Shown: positions 22,143-27,481 of the stretch, in pieces
Numbering within the stretch: the stretch's first letter is position 1
Layout: every line of letters starts with the position of its first letter
Source of the DNA: Propionicimonas sp.
GTDB taxonomy: Bacteria > Actinomycetota > Actinomycetes > Propionibacteriales > Propionibacteriaceae
Assembly (NCBI RefSeq): GCF_029975155.1
Contig: NZ_JARKPQ010000270.1
Coordinates: forward strand, 1 to 48,626
DNA: 48,626 nucleotides
Direction of reading: 5' to 3'
Position numbers and translations under genes: made by a program
Notes under the pieces: generated by a model
What the model was told of the DNA's origin: nothing
The model's input: only the letters and a program-made list of their open reading frames with translations
The model's database searches: none

Positions 22143-23426
22143 TCAGGCGGGGGCTGCGTCCGGCTGGATCCCGGGCGTCGGGCCGTGGGTCGAGCGCATC
22201 AGCGTGACCGCGGCGGCTGCGATCAGCAGCAGGCCGATCCAGTACGGGGCGCCGTGGCTGACGCCGTAGAGCCAGCCGGCGAGCAGGGGAGCGGTCATCT
22301 GGACGGCGGAGCCGAGAGAGGTCAGTCCGCCGGCGAGCCAGCCCTGTTCGTCCGCCGCGACGGAGGCCGACATCAGGCCGTCCAGGGCGGCGGTCATGCC
22401 ACCCTGACCGGCGGCGAGCAGCAGGCCGGCGGTGACCAGCAGCCACGGCGCGGCCAGCAGGGACGCGACGATCGCGAGCCCCAGGCAGCCGACCAGCTGG
22501 CCGAGCATGCCGCCGAGCACGACGCCGCGTTCGCCGAAGGTCTTCAGCAGCCAGCCCAGCAGGACGCCCTGGATCAGGATGTCGGTCACCCCGATGCCGG
22601 AGAGCACCCAGCCCACCTCGGTCGGTCCCCAGCCGACGGAGTCGAGGGCCACGACGCTGAAGTTGTTGGCGAAGAAGGCGAACGGGATGCTGATCAGGGT
22701 GAAGCCCACCAGCAGAGCGCGCAGTTCCTTCCGGCCGAACGCGCTGGAGATGACCTTGAGCGGATGCAGTTCCTCGAGGTTGAGCCGGGTCTTGCGGTTC
22801 TCCCTGGCGAGGCTCTCGGGCAGGACGAGCGCGGACAACACCCCGACGAGCACGGCGATCGCGGCGGTGACGAAGACCGGGGCGGAGAGGCTGACCTGCG
22901 CGAGCAGGCCGCCGAGCGCGGGGCCGATCATGAACCCGACGCCGCTGAGGGCACCGAGCAGGCCGTAGCGCCTGGCCCGGTCCTCGGGCTCGGTGATGTC
23001 GGCGATGTAGGCGAACATCACCGGCATGTCACCGGCGGTGAGGCCGTCGATGATCCGCGAGACCAGCAGCACCCACAGGGCGCCGCCGATGCCGAACATC
23101 ACAAAGCCCGCCGCGGAGCCGAGGACGCTGATCACGAGGACGGGCTTGCGTCCGAACCGGTCGGAGAACGAGCCGAGGAAGGGCGCGGCGACGAACGCGC
23201 ACAGGGCGTACACCGACTCGAGGACGCCCACCCACAGCGCCAGTGAGGACTCCGGGACGTACTCGGAGATCACGAACGGCAGGACGGGCAGGACGATGGT
23301 CATGCCGATCGTCGCGAGGAAGCTGATCGCGATGATCAGCGGCCAGGCCAGCTTCGGCACCTGGACCGGCTGTGGGGTGGCGGCCTCGGCCGACTCCTGG
23401 AACTCATCGAGGTTCATGCTGCTCAT
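22143..23426 (-). CDS. MFS efflux transporter (TetA/DHA1-like)
   Basis: 427 aa, 12 predicted transmembrane helices. Motif A GSFSDRFGRKPVL between TM2 and TM3, motif C-like region GALSGVGFMIGPALGGLLAQ in TM5, a sign of H+ antiporters of the DHA1 group, and an intracellular loop RENRKTRLNLEELHPLK. The ATG overlaps the PadR stop (ATGA). Regulation by that PadR repressor points to drug or toxic-compound export. An upstream in-frame extension is only padR sequence read out of frame. Confidence 0.9.
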   Translation of the reverse strand: MSSMNLDEFQESAEAATPQPVQVPKLAWPLIIAISFLATIGMTIVLPVLPFVISEYVPESSLALWVGVLESVYALCAFVAAPFLGSFSDRFGRKPVLVISVLGSAAGFVMFGIGGALWVLLVSRIIDGLTAGDMPVMFAYIADITEPEDRARRYGLLGALSGVGFMIGPALGGLLAQVSLSAPVFVTAAIAVLVGVLSALVLPESLARENRKTRLNLEELHPLKVISSAFGRKELRALLVGFTLISIPFAFFANNFSVVALDSVGWGPTEVGWVLSGIGVTDILIQGVLLGWLLKTFGERGVVLGGMLGQLVGCLGLAIVASLLAAPWLLVTAGLLLAAGQGGMTAALDGLMSASVAADEQGWLAGGLTSLGSAVQMTAPLLAGWLYGVSHGAPYWIGLLLIAAAAVTLMRSTHGPTPGIQPDAAPA

Positions 23427-23968
23427 GCGTCCTCCTCGGCGAGCATCAGGTAGATCGACTTGCGGGCGGCGCTGACGATGGCCGTCGCCTGCTCGGCCTG
23501 CGCGTCGCTGCCGGCGGCTTCGACCTGCGACAGGGCGCTGAGCAGACCCTCGGTCGCCTGCCGCAGCTTGACCCTGGCTCCCTCGGCCTCGGTGAACTGC
23601 TTCCACGGCTCGCTCTCGCCGGAGTCGGCGACGGCCCTGCGCCCGTAGTCGGTGATGCTGAACACCCGCTTCGAGCCCTCGTTGCGGCTGCGGATGAGGC
23701 CCTGCTCCTGCAGCTGCCGCAGGGTGGGGTAGATGCTGCCCGCACCCGGACGCCACAGGCCCCCGCTGCGGTCAGCCAGCTCCTGGATGATCTGGTAGCC
23801 GTGCATGTCCTGCTCCGCGAGGAGCGCGAGGACCGCGGCCTGCACGTCCCCGCGCCGGACGCGGGCCTGGCCCCGTCCGCCGAAGCCACCGCCCCAGCCG
23901 GGACCGGGACGGCCGCCGCGCCGGGGATCCATGCCTCGGCTGAACCTCGGATCGGTGACGTCGCTCAT
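23423..23968 (-). CDS. PadR-family transcriptional regulator
   Basis: 181 aa. A Gly/Arg/Pro-rich N-terminus (residues 10-37), PadR winged helix at about 38-115 (VQAAVLALLAEQDMHGYQIIQELADRSGGLWRPGAGSIYPTLRQLQEQGLI) and a helical C-terminal dimerisation part. PadR proteins of this type repress adjacent efflux genes until a drug binds. It heads an operon with the MFS gene. Inverted repeat 23991-24016 lies 23 bp upstream. Confidence 0.92.
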   Translation of the reverse strand: MSDVTDPRFSRGMDPRRGGRPGPGWGGGFGGRGQARVRRGDVQAAVLALLAEQDMHGYQIIQELADRSGGLWRPGAGSIYPTLRQLQEQGLIRSRNEGSKRVFSITDYGRRAVADSGESEPWKQFTEAEGARVKLRQATEGLLSALSQVEAAGSDAQAEQATAIVSAARKSIYLMLAEEDA

Positions 23969-24241: not shown

Positions 24242-24790
24242 TCAGCGGGACGCCCGGAGGAGGGCGTCCAGCCGGGCCATGAGTTGCGAGTCCCGGCTCC
24301 TGCCAGGGGCCGGTGTGGGATAGCGGCGGAGCACGTCGATCAGAGTGGGGGTCGCGCGTCCCCGGGCCTCCTCGATCGCGGCGGAACTCGCACGGGTGTC
24401 GCCGCCGGCCTCCAGTTCGGCGATGTGGGCGACGCTGGCGGCGGCACGCAGGATATGTCCCACCTGCCCGGCCTGGGCGAGCGGGTGCAGGTAGGCCGCG
24501 GACGCGGCGTCCCCAGCGCAGCGCGCGGCCAGCTTCGCGACCTCGGTGGCTGAATCCCTGGCCGCGCGGTGGGCATCGAGCGAGGTGACCCGCTGCCGTC
24601 TGCTTCGGTTGGCGCCGTTGACGAACTCCCAGGCCGCGTCGATGGCGGCGCGTGGCCGAGGGTCGTCGGGATGGATGTCCTCGAAGAGCGGCAGTACCTG
24701 CGCAGCGCTCTCGGCCACGAAGCGGGCGACGGTCCGCAGCTCGTCCATGGTCAGCTCGAAGTCACCGGACGCGCGTGGCACGCAGGCCAT
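24242..24790 (-). CDS. Putative immunity-like/hypothetical helical protein
   Basis: 182 aa, mostly helical and cytosolic. Core: FELTMDELRTVARFVAESAAQVLPLFEDIHPDDPRPRAAIDAAWEFVNG, then DAHRAARDSATEVAKLAARCAGDAASAAYLHPLAQAGQVGHILRAAA. From memory, proteins with this core are annotated 'putative immunity protein' (Imm-5-like), but no toxin gene is nearby and I cannot confirm the role. The start may be the first ATG or the internal Met15. It is divergent from the kinase-phosphorylase gene, 96 bp away. Confidence 0.72.
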   Translation of the reverse strand: MACVPRASGDFELTMDELRTVARFVAESAAQVLPLFEDIHPDDPRPRAAIDAAWEFVNGANRSRRQRVTSLDAHRAARDSATEVAKLAARCAGDAASAAYLHPLAQAGQVGHILRAAASVAHIAELEAGGDTRASSAAIEEARGRATPTLIDVLRRYPTPAPGRSRDSQLMARLDALLRASR

Positions 24791-24886: not shown

Positions 24887-27481
24887 ATGGACGTGAGCTT
24901 CCCCGACGTGGCCGACCTGGCCGCCGTCCCCACCGGGGACATGCCAGGCGACAAGGTCCAGATCACCGAGAGCCACGTCGCCAAGGCCAGGATCGTCTTC
25001 CCCGAGCTCTGGCGACTCCTCGAACCCCTGCTGGCCGACGGCGGCCGGGCGGTGGTCGCGGTCTGCGGCGGCTCCGGCGTGGGCAAGTCCGAGACCGGCT
25101 CGCTGCTGGCGTACGGACTGAACGCGCACGGCGTGGGTGCGTACGTGCTCTCTGGCGACAACTACCCGCGCCGGATCCCGTCCGCCAACGATGCCGAGCG
25201 GCTGCGCACCTACCGCGTGGGCGGGGTGCAGGGCCTGGTGGCCGCCGGCGCCTACACCGGGCAGGTGCGTGCCGAGCTGGCCGAGCTGCAGGCCGCCGAC
25301 CGGGACGCCGCGCCGGCCGAGGCGGCCGCCCACCCGTGGCTCGCCACCTACCAGAAGGCCGCCCGGAAGGCGCTCGCCGGCTACCTCGGCAGCCCGGCCG
25401 AGACCGACTTCGACGAGGTGAACCGCATCCTGGCCGCCTTTCGCGCCGGCGCGCCGGAGCTCACCCTCAAGCGGATGGGACGCACCCCGGACGAGCTCTG
25501 GTACGAGGCCGTGGACGTCCGCGACGTCCGCGTCCTCGTCGTGGAGTGGACGCACGGCAACTCCGACCATCTCGTCGGCGTGGACGTCCCGATCCTGCTG
25601 AACAGCACCCCCGAGGAGACGCTCGCCCACCGCAGGTCCCGCAGCCGGGACGGCGCGGTCGACAGCCCGTTCACCACGGCCGTCCTCGAGCTCGAGCAGG
25701 CGAAGCTGCATGCCCAGGCGCCCAAGGCGAAGCTGATCGTCGCCAAGTCCGGCGAACTGCTCGACTACGACGGCTACCTGAGGGCGATGGGTGCCGACCT
25801 GCCGGGGTACGGGCCGATGCTGAACGTTTACCCCGACAGCATCGGCGGCACGCTGGCCGGGCTGGTCGCTTTCGTCCGGCGCCCCGAACTCACGGACGCG
25901 TTCCGCTCCGCCTATCTCCTGCCCAGCGTGTTCAACACCGACCTCGACCGCGGCTTCTCGGTGATCGACTACGAGTTGTCCGAGCAGTTCGCGACCCGCG
26001 CCGACCTGGACGCCCTCGCCGACGCCGGGATCGAGGCGAAGTTCGACTTCATCCTCAATCACGCCTCGGTGCTGTCGCCGCAGTTCCAGGACATCCTGGT
26101 CAACGGCGAGCGCTCGGCCTATGCCGACTTCTTCATCGACTGGAACGCCTTCTGGGCCGGGCACGGCACGATGACCGACGAGGGATACGTCCAGCCCGAT
26201 GCCGAGCTGATCACCGACATGTTCTTCCGCAAGCCGGGGCTGCCGATCCTGATGGTGCGACTGCCGGACGGGCGCGAGGTGCCCTACTGGAACACCTTCT
26301 ACCAGGAGGTCCGCTACACCGCGCCGGACACCCAGCACCTGATGAAGGCCACCGGTCTGCAGTACGGACGGGCGGAGGTCCTCGCCGGCCGGCTCGCGGC
26401 GGCGCTCGCGTCCGGTGGGCGTCCGGGGGAGGCCGACTTCACTGGCTTCGAGCAGGTGCGGGACGCGGTCGTCGACCTCGTGGAGGCGAACCGGACCTAC
26501 CTCGGCCAGATGGACCTGAACATCAACTCGCCGCTGGTCTGGGACTTCTACGCGGACACCCTCGACAAGCTCGCCGGCTACGGCGCACAGATCGTCCGGC
26601 TGGACGCCTTCGCCTACGCGCCGAAGGAACCGGGGGCGAAGAACTTCCTCAACGACCCGGGGACGTGGGAGCTGCTGGCCAGGGTGAAGCGGCTCGCCGA
26701 TCGCCGCGGCCTGCTGCTGCTGCCCGAGATCCACTCCACGTACGCCGAGGGGATCCACGAGGTGATCGCCTCGAAGGGCTTCCTGACCTACGACTTCTTC
26801 CTGCCCGGACTGCTGATCGACGCGTTCGAGAGCCGGGATGCGTCCACGCTGAAGCGGTGGATCGGGGAGCTGCTGGCCAAGGGCATCCGGACGGTGAACA
26901 TGCTGGGCTGCCACGACGGCATCCCGCTGCTCGACCTGAAGGGCCTGCTGGACGAGGAGCGCATCCAGGCGCTGATCGCCACGATCGTCGGCCGTGGCGG
27001 CTACGTGAAGGATCTGCACGGCGCGAAGAACATGTACTACCAGGTCAACGCGACGTACTACAGCGCGCTGGGGGAGAGCGACGCCCGGCTGCTGCTGGCC
27101 CGGGCCGTGCAGCTGTTCATGCCCGGCAAGCCGCAGGTCTGGTACCTCGATCTGCTCGCTGGGGCGAACGACCACGACGCGGTCGCGAAGGCCGGACCCG
27201 GCGGTCACAAGGAGATCAACCGCACCAACCTCTCCGCCGAGGACGCGGCGTCCCGGCTGGCGTGGCCCGTGGTGGCCCGCCAGCTCGAGCTGCTGCGCTT
27301 CCGCAGCACCTTCGGCGCCTTCGGCTGGGACGCCGCCTGCGAGATCGCCGACACCGAGTCGGGCCGGCTGCTGATCACCTGGCGCAAGGACGGACTGTCC
27401 GCCACCCTCGACGCCGACCTCGCCGCCGAGACCTTCACGATCACCGCCACCGACGCCAACGGCGCCACCCGCACGATCTGA
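24887..27481 (+). CDS. P-loop kinase - GH13_18 (sucrose-phosphorylase-like) fusion protein
   Basis: 864 aa, single open frame, SD GAGGAG upstream. Residues 1-295: nucleoside/sugar-kinase-type P-loop domain with Walker A GGSGVGKS (61-68), SGDNYPRR (89-96) and VVEWTHGNSD (218-227). Residues about 310-864: GH13 subfamily 18 phosphorylase with FDFILNHAS, nucleophile Asp573 (RLDAFAYA), acid/base Glu614 (PEIHSTY) and third acid Asp677 (CHDGIP), plus NATYYSALGESD and PGKPQVWYLDLLAG. About 60 extra residues (480-540) precede QMDLNINSPLVWDFY. The CHDGIP loop is nearer sucrose-6-phosphate phosphorylases than plain sucrose phosphorylases. Likely reaction: phosphorolysis of an alpha-glucoside to glucose 1-phosphate, with phosphorylation of a product or substrate by the kinase; substrates unknown. 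Confidence 0.85.
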   Translation: MDVSFPDVADLAAVPTGDMPGDKVQITESHVAKARIVFPELWRLLEPLLADGGRAVVAVCGGSGVGKSETGSLLAYGLNAHGVGAYVLSGDNYPRRIPSANDAERLRTYRVGGVQGLVAAGAYTGQVRAELAELQAADRDAAPAEAAAHPWLATYQKAARKALAGYLGSPAETDFDEVNRILAAFRAGAPELTLKRMGRTPDELWYEAVDVRDVRVLVVEWTHGNSDHLVGVDVPILLNSTPEETLAHRRSRSRDGAVDSPFTTAVLELEQAKLHAQAPKAKLIVAKSGELLDYDGYLRAMGADLPGYGPMLNVYPDSIGGTLAGLVAFVRRPELTDAFRSAYLLPSVFNTDLDRGFSVIDYELSEQFATRADLDALADAGIEAKFDFILNHASVLSPQFQDILVNGERSAYADFFIDWNAFWAGHGTMTDEGYVQPDAELITDMFFRKPGLPILMVRLPDGREVPYWNTFYQEVRYTAPDTQHLMKATGLQYGRAEVLAGRLAAALASGGRPGEADFTGFEQVRDAVVDLVEANRTYLGQMDLNINSPLVWDFYADTLDKLAGYGAQIVRLDAFAYAPKEPGAKNFLNDPGTWELLARVKRLADRRGLLLLPEIHSTYAEGIHEVIASKGFLTYDFFLPGLLIDAFESRDASTLKRWIGELLAKGIRTVNMLGCHDGIPLLDLKGLLDEERIQALIATIVGRGGYVKDLHGAKNMYYQVNATYYSALGESDARLLLARAVQLFMPGKPQVWYLDLLAGANDHDAVAKAGPGGHKEINRTNLSAEDAASRLAWPVVARQLELLRFRSTFGAFGWDAACEIADTESGRLLITWRKDGLSATLDADLAAETFTITATDANGATRTI

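Follow-up and report, generated by a model that had tools for sequence, protein, structure and literature searches.

We analysed a window of 48,626 nucleotides from Propionicimonas sp., in which an 864-aa ORF (24887-27481, + strand) is predicted to encode a sucrose kinase fused to a sucrose-6F-phosphate phosphorylase (SPP). Judged from its sequence, the protein is probably a bifunctional sucrose-catabolic enzyme (probability roughly 0.78), with C6 of the fructose unit as the most likely site of phosphorylation. The N-terminal PRK/uridine-kinase-type domain would convert sucrose and ATP to sucrose-6F-phosphate and ADP, and the C-terminal GH13_18 domain would use inorganic phosphate to cleave sucrose-6F-phosphate, giving glucose 1-phosphate and fructose 6-phosphate. 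Such a route has the same ATP cost as sucrose phosphorylase plus fructokinase, and costs one ATP less than invertase plus two kinases. The fusion may bring the advantage of one expression unit and possibly a handing-over of the intermediate; sucrose would be trapped as its phosphate and free fructose never released. The first-pass annotation had proposed that two metabolic steps are coupled in one polypeptide, and this is upheld as a predicted reading by SPP-class residues, a kinase homologous to that of AgaSK (the Ruminococcus gnavus alpha-galactosidase/sucrose kinase), and the linkage of the two genes.

The ORF is intact from ATG to stop. Longer frames of 1025 aa on the + strand and 989 aa on the - strand overlap it in the ORF list. 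It represents a real gene rather than a chance frame in high-GC DNA, because relatives in Actinomycetota carry the fusion in one frame with 61–85% identity to the window protein (best segment), and within the window's own genus group the fusion is present in 14 of 25 genomes. The fusion was absent from all 16 further genomes of the order, which gave weak partial matches only (E about 1e-4), and within its own genome the window gene was the sole match at E ≤ 1e-3. The earlier description of a kinase and a GH13_18 phosphorylase in a single 864-codon frame was thus confirmed by the intact ORF and by relatives that keep both in one frame.

The phosphorylase domain comprises residues 301-864 (25787-27478, +), as delimited by profile and PDB matches, alignment and fold. 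Its best PDB sequence match was 6S9U, the SPP of Ilumatobacter coccineus (IcSPP), with an E value of 6.7e-176, and the next sequence followed at 2.8e-71. IcSPP was represented in the alignment by an ORF of genome G309 that matches 6S9U along all 523 residues, and 288 of 496 aligned residues were identical. The full-protein model (mean pLDDT 90.9, pTM 0.85) superposed on 6S9U with a TM score of 0.92 over the target, and fold matches 1 to 20 were all sucrose, sucrose-6F-phosphate or glucosylglycerol phosphorylases. The catalytic residues named at first pass were verified by alignment with IcSPP: D573, the nucleophile (26603-26605; IcSPP D223), E614, the acid/base (26726-26728; E264), and D677, the transition-state stabiliser (26915-26917; D327). 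This aligned Asp-Glu-Asp triad and the family fold place the domain in GH13_18.

The binding residues named for IcSPP (PMC6720575, section 2.3) are also conserved in the alignment, as R448 (26228-26230; IcSPP R152), K708 (27008-27010; K364, predicted to bind fructose 6-phosphate), K714, Y718, Q719 and K775 (27209-27211; K434). K714, Y718 and Q719 lie in loop A, KNMYYQ (residues 714-719, 27026-27043), which carries the KxxYYQ motif reported for strict SPPs. For both IcSPP and the R. gnavus enzyme (RgSPP), fructose 6-phosphate was the sole accepted acceptor among those tried (PMC6720575, PMC6521584). By its residues, the phosphorylase half is therefore assignable to the strict sucrose-6F-phosphate class of the IcSPP/RgSPP clade. 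The first-pass annotation was right about the family; its substrate list (sucrose, sucrose-6-phosphate, glucosylglycerol, glucosylglycerate) left the choice too open, as the residues point to sucrose-6F-phosphate. The CHDGIP loop was then held to be a distinguishing mark, which is incorrect, because characterised IcSPP has the same GCHDGIP that surrounds D677.

Conservation was examined in 116 kinase-linked ORFs with a length of at least 450 aa, some of them cut or repeat copies of one gene. The equivalents of R152, D223, D327 and K364 were present in all 116, those of E264, Y377 and Q378 in 115 (one unaligned), that of K434 in 111 (five unaligned) and that of the loop lysine K373 in 104, with other letters in 11 (for example QTMYYQ in G177 and RNIYYQ in G109) and one unaligned. 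In the comparison set of 32 GH13_18 ORFs that lack a kinase, R stood at the K434 position in all 32, the R152 position was R in 12 and the K364 position was K in seven. Single signature residues are thus not exclusive to the class, since the arginine and K364-type lysine also occur without a kinase and the loop lysine is missing from some kinase-linked ORFs. One locus (L116) had TTTYYQ without a kinase; its upstream end is cut and its identity is only 37%. The window protein scored 295.5 bits against the sucrose phosphorylase equivalog model TIGR03852, below the curated cut-off of 334.4. The SPP gene beside an AgaSK-type gene (L107:5227-6702) passes the same model as 'sucrose phosphorylase' with 353.3 bits, an automatic name that is likely wrong, because its R. 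gnavus counterpart is reported to be active on sucrose-6F-phosphate only.

The phosphorylase domain also contains an insert of residues about 477-528 (26315-26470, +), largely helical in the model. The 60-residue insert (480-540) described earlier as setting the protein apart is a real difference from IcSPP and from SPP of the R. gnavus type, but no peculiarity of the window protein, since 95 of 110 kinase-linked SPP domains have it. An adaptation to fusion was rejected on the same counts: 34 of 39 fused rows and 61 of 71 non-fused rows, including most split SPPs, carry the insert.

The kinase domain occupies residues 1-300 (24887-25786, +). Its Walker A motif at residues 61-68, seen at first pass, was verified as GGSGVGKS (25067-25090). 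SGDNY (residues 89-93, 25151-25165) contains the invariant D91, which we take from uridine-kinase chemistry to be the catalytic base, and RxRD (residues 252-255, 25640-25651), with R252, R254 and D255 invariant, presumably forms the lid. Conservation was scored in 110 kinase ORFs (HMM E ≤ 1e-60, aligned over both ends; some cut or repeat copies of one gene), a set that leaves the divergent Ilumatobacter-type kinases outside its E limit. Sixteen of 18 checked positions (G61, G62, G64, G66, K67, G90, D91, R96, D102, R105, R199, E220, H223, R252, R254 and D255) were invariant in 110/110, S89 was S in 106 and T222 was T in 109. A degenerate kinase was rejected, as the window protein keeps all 18.

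Searched separately, as had been suggested at first pass, the phosphorylase half led to 6S9U and the kinase half to a PRK/uridine-kinase-type fold. The kinase model (pLDDT 92.3) resembled pantothenate kinase, the fructokinase-like 3c8u, uridine kinase and PRK with modest TM scores; the 50 listed matches were mainly pantothenate kinases, uridine-cytidine kinases and phosphoribulokinases, together with 3c8u and glycerate kinase (best E 1.8e-7; TM 0.40–0.50 by query and up to 0.68 by target). In Pfam and NCBIfam scans no family exceeded its cut-off on the window kinase, with weak P-loop matches in Pfam, and PF00485 (PRK/uridine kinase) was absent among its matches at E up to 1. A function is proposed here for a kinase family that has no model of its own in these scans. 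The window kinase is homologous to the AgaSK sucrose kinase: it shared 46% identity with the kinase domain (203 aa) of the protein of AgaSK type at L107, as well as Walker A, SGD, RxRD and the invariant columns. On that domain PF00485 reached 33.1 bits against a cut-off of 22, and APS_kinase and Zeta_toxin were above cut-off on it alone, whereas PRK was also above cut-off on L097. The isolated AgaSK kinase domain phosphorylates sucrose with a Km of 1–3 mM and a kcat of about 2.4 per s (PMC7688924).

The first 88 loci, collected in a survey for the same fusion that had been proposed at first pass, comprised 42 with a single fused ORF (38 distinct genes) and 46 with neighbouring ORFs in the order kinase then SPP. 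Because these loci had been chosen by similarity to the fusion, genome surveys were run, examining about 1.5 kb either side of each match; in the Actinomycetota, Clostridia and Bacteroidia surveys, scoring covered the two to four best candidates of each genome. The Lachnospiraceae, Clostridia and Bacteroidia surveys include their centre genomes (G041, G041 and G043), which are known positives, and take their group names from the centre-genome loci (L064, Oliverpabstia; L043, Mangrovibacterium). With the kinase as query, 13 of 150 Lachnospiraceae genomes had the kinase, and in 13/13 it lay beside or was fused to an SPP (one fusion, in G177; one AgaSK type, in G094; 11 neighbours). With the phosphorylase half as query, 25 of 391 Clostridia genomes gave a match; the YYQ type had a kinase in 14/14 (13 neighbours, one fusion), versus 0/11 for GH13_18 genes of other types. 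The whole-protein query matched in 29 of 396 Actinomycetota genomes. All seven SPP-type loci had a kinase: four were fused, one of them the window gene, and three, including that of the IcSPP genome, had a divergent 232-238-aa kinase directly upstream. The other GH13_18 loci had a kinase beside them in 0/22, a count that includes the cut L116 and leaves three second matches outside. Among 295 Bacteroidia genomes there were two matches, both of YYQ type and both with the kinase. Fisher values for the linkage were 2.2e-7 and 6.4e-7, which ignore shared ancestry. Three Clostridia genes with an HQ loop ending as in the Thermoanaerobacterium enzyme TtSPP (L166-L168) were all without a kinase, in keeping with the proposal that TtSPP is supplied by the PTS. 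Where SPPs obtain their sucrose-6F-phosphate has been an open point; a 2020 review offered uptake by the PTS, or else some unknown source in the environment or in metabolism (PMC7178133). Both the fusion and the consistency of the pairing suggest a sucrose kinase as that source.

The position of the phosphate is where the bifunctional reading meets the literature. AgaSK was published as phosphorylating C6 of glucose (introduction of PMC7688924), while RgSPP, encoded at the same locus, uses the fructose-6-phosphate form only (PMC7688924). If the published assignment held for the window protein, its kinase would make sucrose-6G-phosphate, and either the two domains would serve separate branches or the phosphorylase would yield glucose 1,6-bisphosphate and fructose. 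We consider this unlikely, as the phosphorylase carries the residues of enzymes with a strict specificity for fructose 6-phosphate (PMC6720575, PMC6521584) and the kinase was seen only with the SPP class in the surveys; moreover, the 2020 work names its product by mass spectrometry, which may not by itself place the phosphate. That the kinase is fused to an SPP and absent beside the other GH13_18 genes examined argues, by association, for a kinase family that phosphorylates C6 of fructose, contrary to the AgaSK assignment. The published result may need re-checking, and the conflict between a glucose-C6 kinase and a neighbouring enzyme limited to the fructose-C6 phosphate is now directly testable.

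Taken together, these data make it fairly likely that an ATP-dependent sucrose 6F-kinase family exists, with SPP as its obligate partner in Actinomycetota, Bacillota, Bacteroidota and Spirochaetota at the least. Kinase and SPP together would convert free sucrose to glucose 1-phosphate and fructose 6-phosphate independently of the PTS, the glucose-C6 assignment of AgaSK would be wrong, and the fusion would have been gained or lost on several occasions, perhaps handing the intermediate from one site to the other.

The first-pass annotation had also offered the released acceptor, the substrate or glucose 1-phosphate as the target of the kinase; the substrate is favoured, and the other two are unlikely because of the SPP-class residues and the homologue with reported sucrose-kinase activity. 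A kinase acting on a product, turning fructose 6-phosphate into fructose 1,6-bisphosphate or glucose 1-phosphate into glucose 1,6-bisphosphate, would suit the presence of phosphoribulokinase, a sugar-phosphate kinase, among the fold matches and the phosphofructokinase gene in the TtSPP cluster (PMC6521584). It is quite improbable, since the homologous AgaSK domain acts on free sucrose in the millimolar range given above (PMC7688924) and sucrose-6F-phosphate would be left without a source. More doubtful still is a different disaccharide, of glucosyl-fructose or a related type, as the true substrate, with the phosphate placed on its acceptor unit: a recognised sucrose transporter is missing beside the window gene, but IcSPP and RgSPP, with the same binding residues, took fructose 6-phosphate alone among the acceptors tried.

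The nine neighbours scanned in the window encode an AHSA1-like protein, an MFS transporter and a PadR regulator, an Imm5-like protein, an ORF without a family, an aldehyde dehydrogenase, a MoCF protein, a P450 and a second MFS protein, and none of the nine was a recognisable sucrose gene. One neighbouring MFS transporter also matched Sugar_tr, below its main MFS_1 match. The MFS transporter and the adjoining PadR-type regulator lie at 22143-23968 (-), and the Imm5-like putative immunity protein gene at 24242-24790 (-), just upstream of the fusion gene. Similarity to the window extends into the flanks in four of nine relatives and is confined to the gene itself in five (matches over 200 bases). 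In its own genome there were one GH32 match and, in an S6PP search, three partial matches over cut-off; another sucrose or fructan route may exist, given the GH32 match. ABC permeases of the kind seen at the AgaSK locus were near 2/25 fused loci (10 kb or more of sequence) versus 13/34 split loci. Counted against the bifunctional reading were this permease distribution, the neighbours without a sucrose gene, the GH32 match, the published glucose-C6 assignment, the window kinase's place above no Pfam or NCBIfam cut-off, and the signature residues that are singly not exclusive.

A tree built by a quick method from 110 SPP-domain rows (omitting GH13_18 without a kinase, ORFs shorter than 450 aa, identical rows, listed repeat copies, and L085, a distinct fused gene 84.5% identical to L005) had its fusions mostly within Actinomycetota, with further ones on a Spirochaetales contig (L079) and in Clostridia (L108, L157). 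Along the tree, the fused label needed 4 changes (shuffled mean 32); read without a root, each may be a gain or a loss of the fusion. The long rows L096 and L100 meet in the tree. Two SPP/kinase pairs on contigs titled Alphaproteobacteria (L044, L045) group with Bacteroidota rows, which may reflect transfer or mislabelled bins. Kinase and SPP were in the same frame at 46/46 split loci, which were drawn from the best 80 of 556 stretches by a search that favours one-frame matches. Stop-codon readthrough was rejected, the shared frame being ascribed to this selection. A start codon precedes the SPP in nearly all split pairs (at L059 it would lie beyond the stretch shown), often after a purine-rich stretch, and the kinase-SPP spacing varies in the genome surveys.

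Both domains are already published, as is the link of SPP and kinase in gene clusters, shown for R. gnavus, B. hansenii, E. rectale and Clostridium sp. L2-50; that cluster work proposes that sucrose-6F-phosphate arrives via a transporter and has the kinase product as sucrose 6-phosphate for another enzyme. A sucrose-kinase/SPP fusion was named in no paper found in the main texts of the open-licence literature, a scope with most subscription papers outside. IcSPP is like the window protein in its catalytic triad, binding residues, KxxYYQ loop and CHDGIP, but lacks the insert and the fused kinase, and has a separate divergent kinase gene directly upstream. This 232-aa kinase gene (L139; G309:C1:3623497-3624126) receives no mention in the examined sections of the structure paper. 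TtSPP shares the reaction class; unlike the window protein it has the loop GFDVHQ, is promiscuous, and has the PTS proposed as its source of phosphorylated sucrose. AgaSK has a homologous kinase and an SPP encoded next to it; its kinase follows a GH36 galactosidase at the C-terminal end of the protein and has no counterpart of residues 118-154 of the window protein, whereas the window kinase is N-terminal to the SPP itself. L107 (G094) encodes, one after another, ABC permeases, a GH36-kinase protein of 938 aa and an SPP. Residues 4-723 of the GH36-kinase protein (the 720-aa galactosidase part) match AgaSK (PDB 2yfn) with 1638 bits, which identifies L107 as a locus of the type known from R. gnavus (PMC6521584). 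An unfused version of it is L078, a Lachnospiraceae locus where sugar ABC permeases are followed in series by a GH36, a kinase and an SPP as separate genes. Adjacent or split arrangements are published for R. gnavus-type AgaSK beside SPP and for the separate kinase of Clostridium sp. L2-50 (PMC6521584, PMC7688924). The split pairs of Clostridia and Bacteroidota have the order of the window protein, kinase then SPP, with 51–62% identity to it in 12 of 14 kinases (set A1; 40 and 42% in the other two) and 57–64% in the SPPs at 11 of those loci, and they differ from it in being two genes with start codons between.
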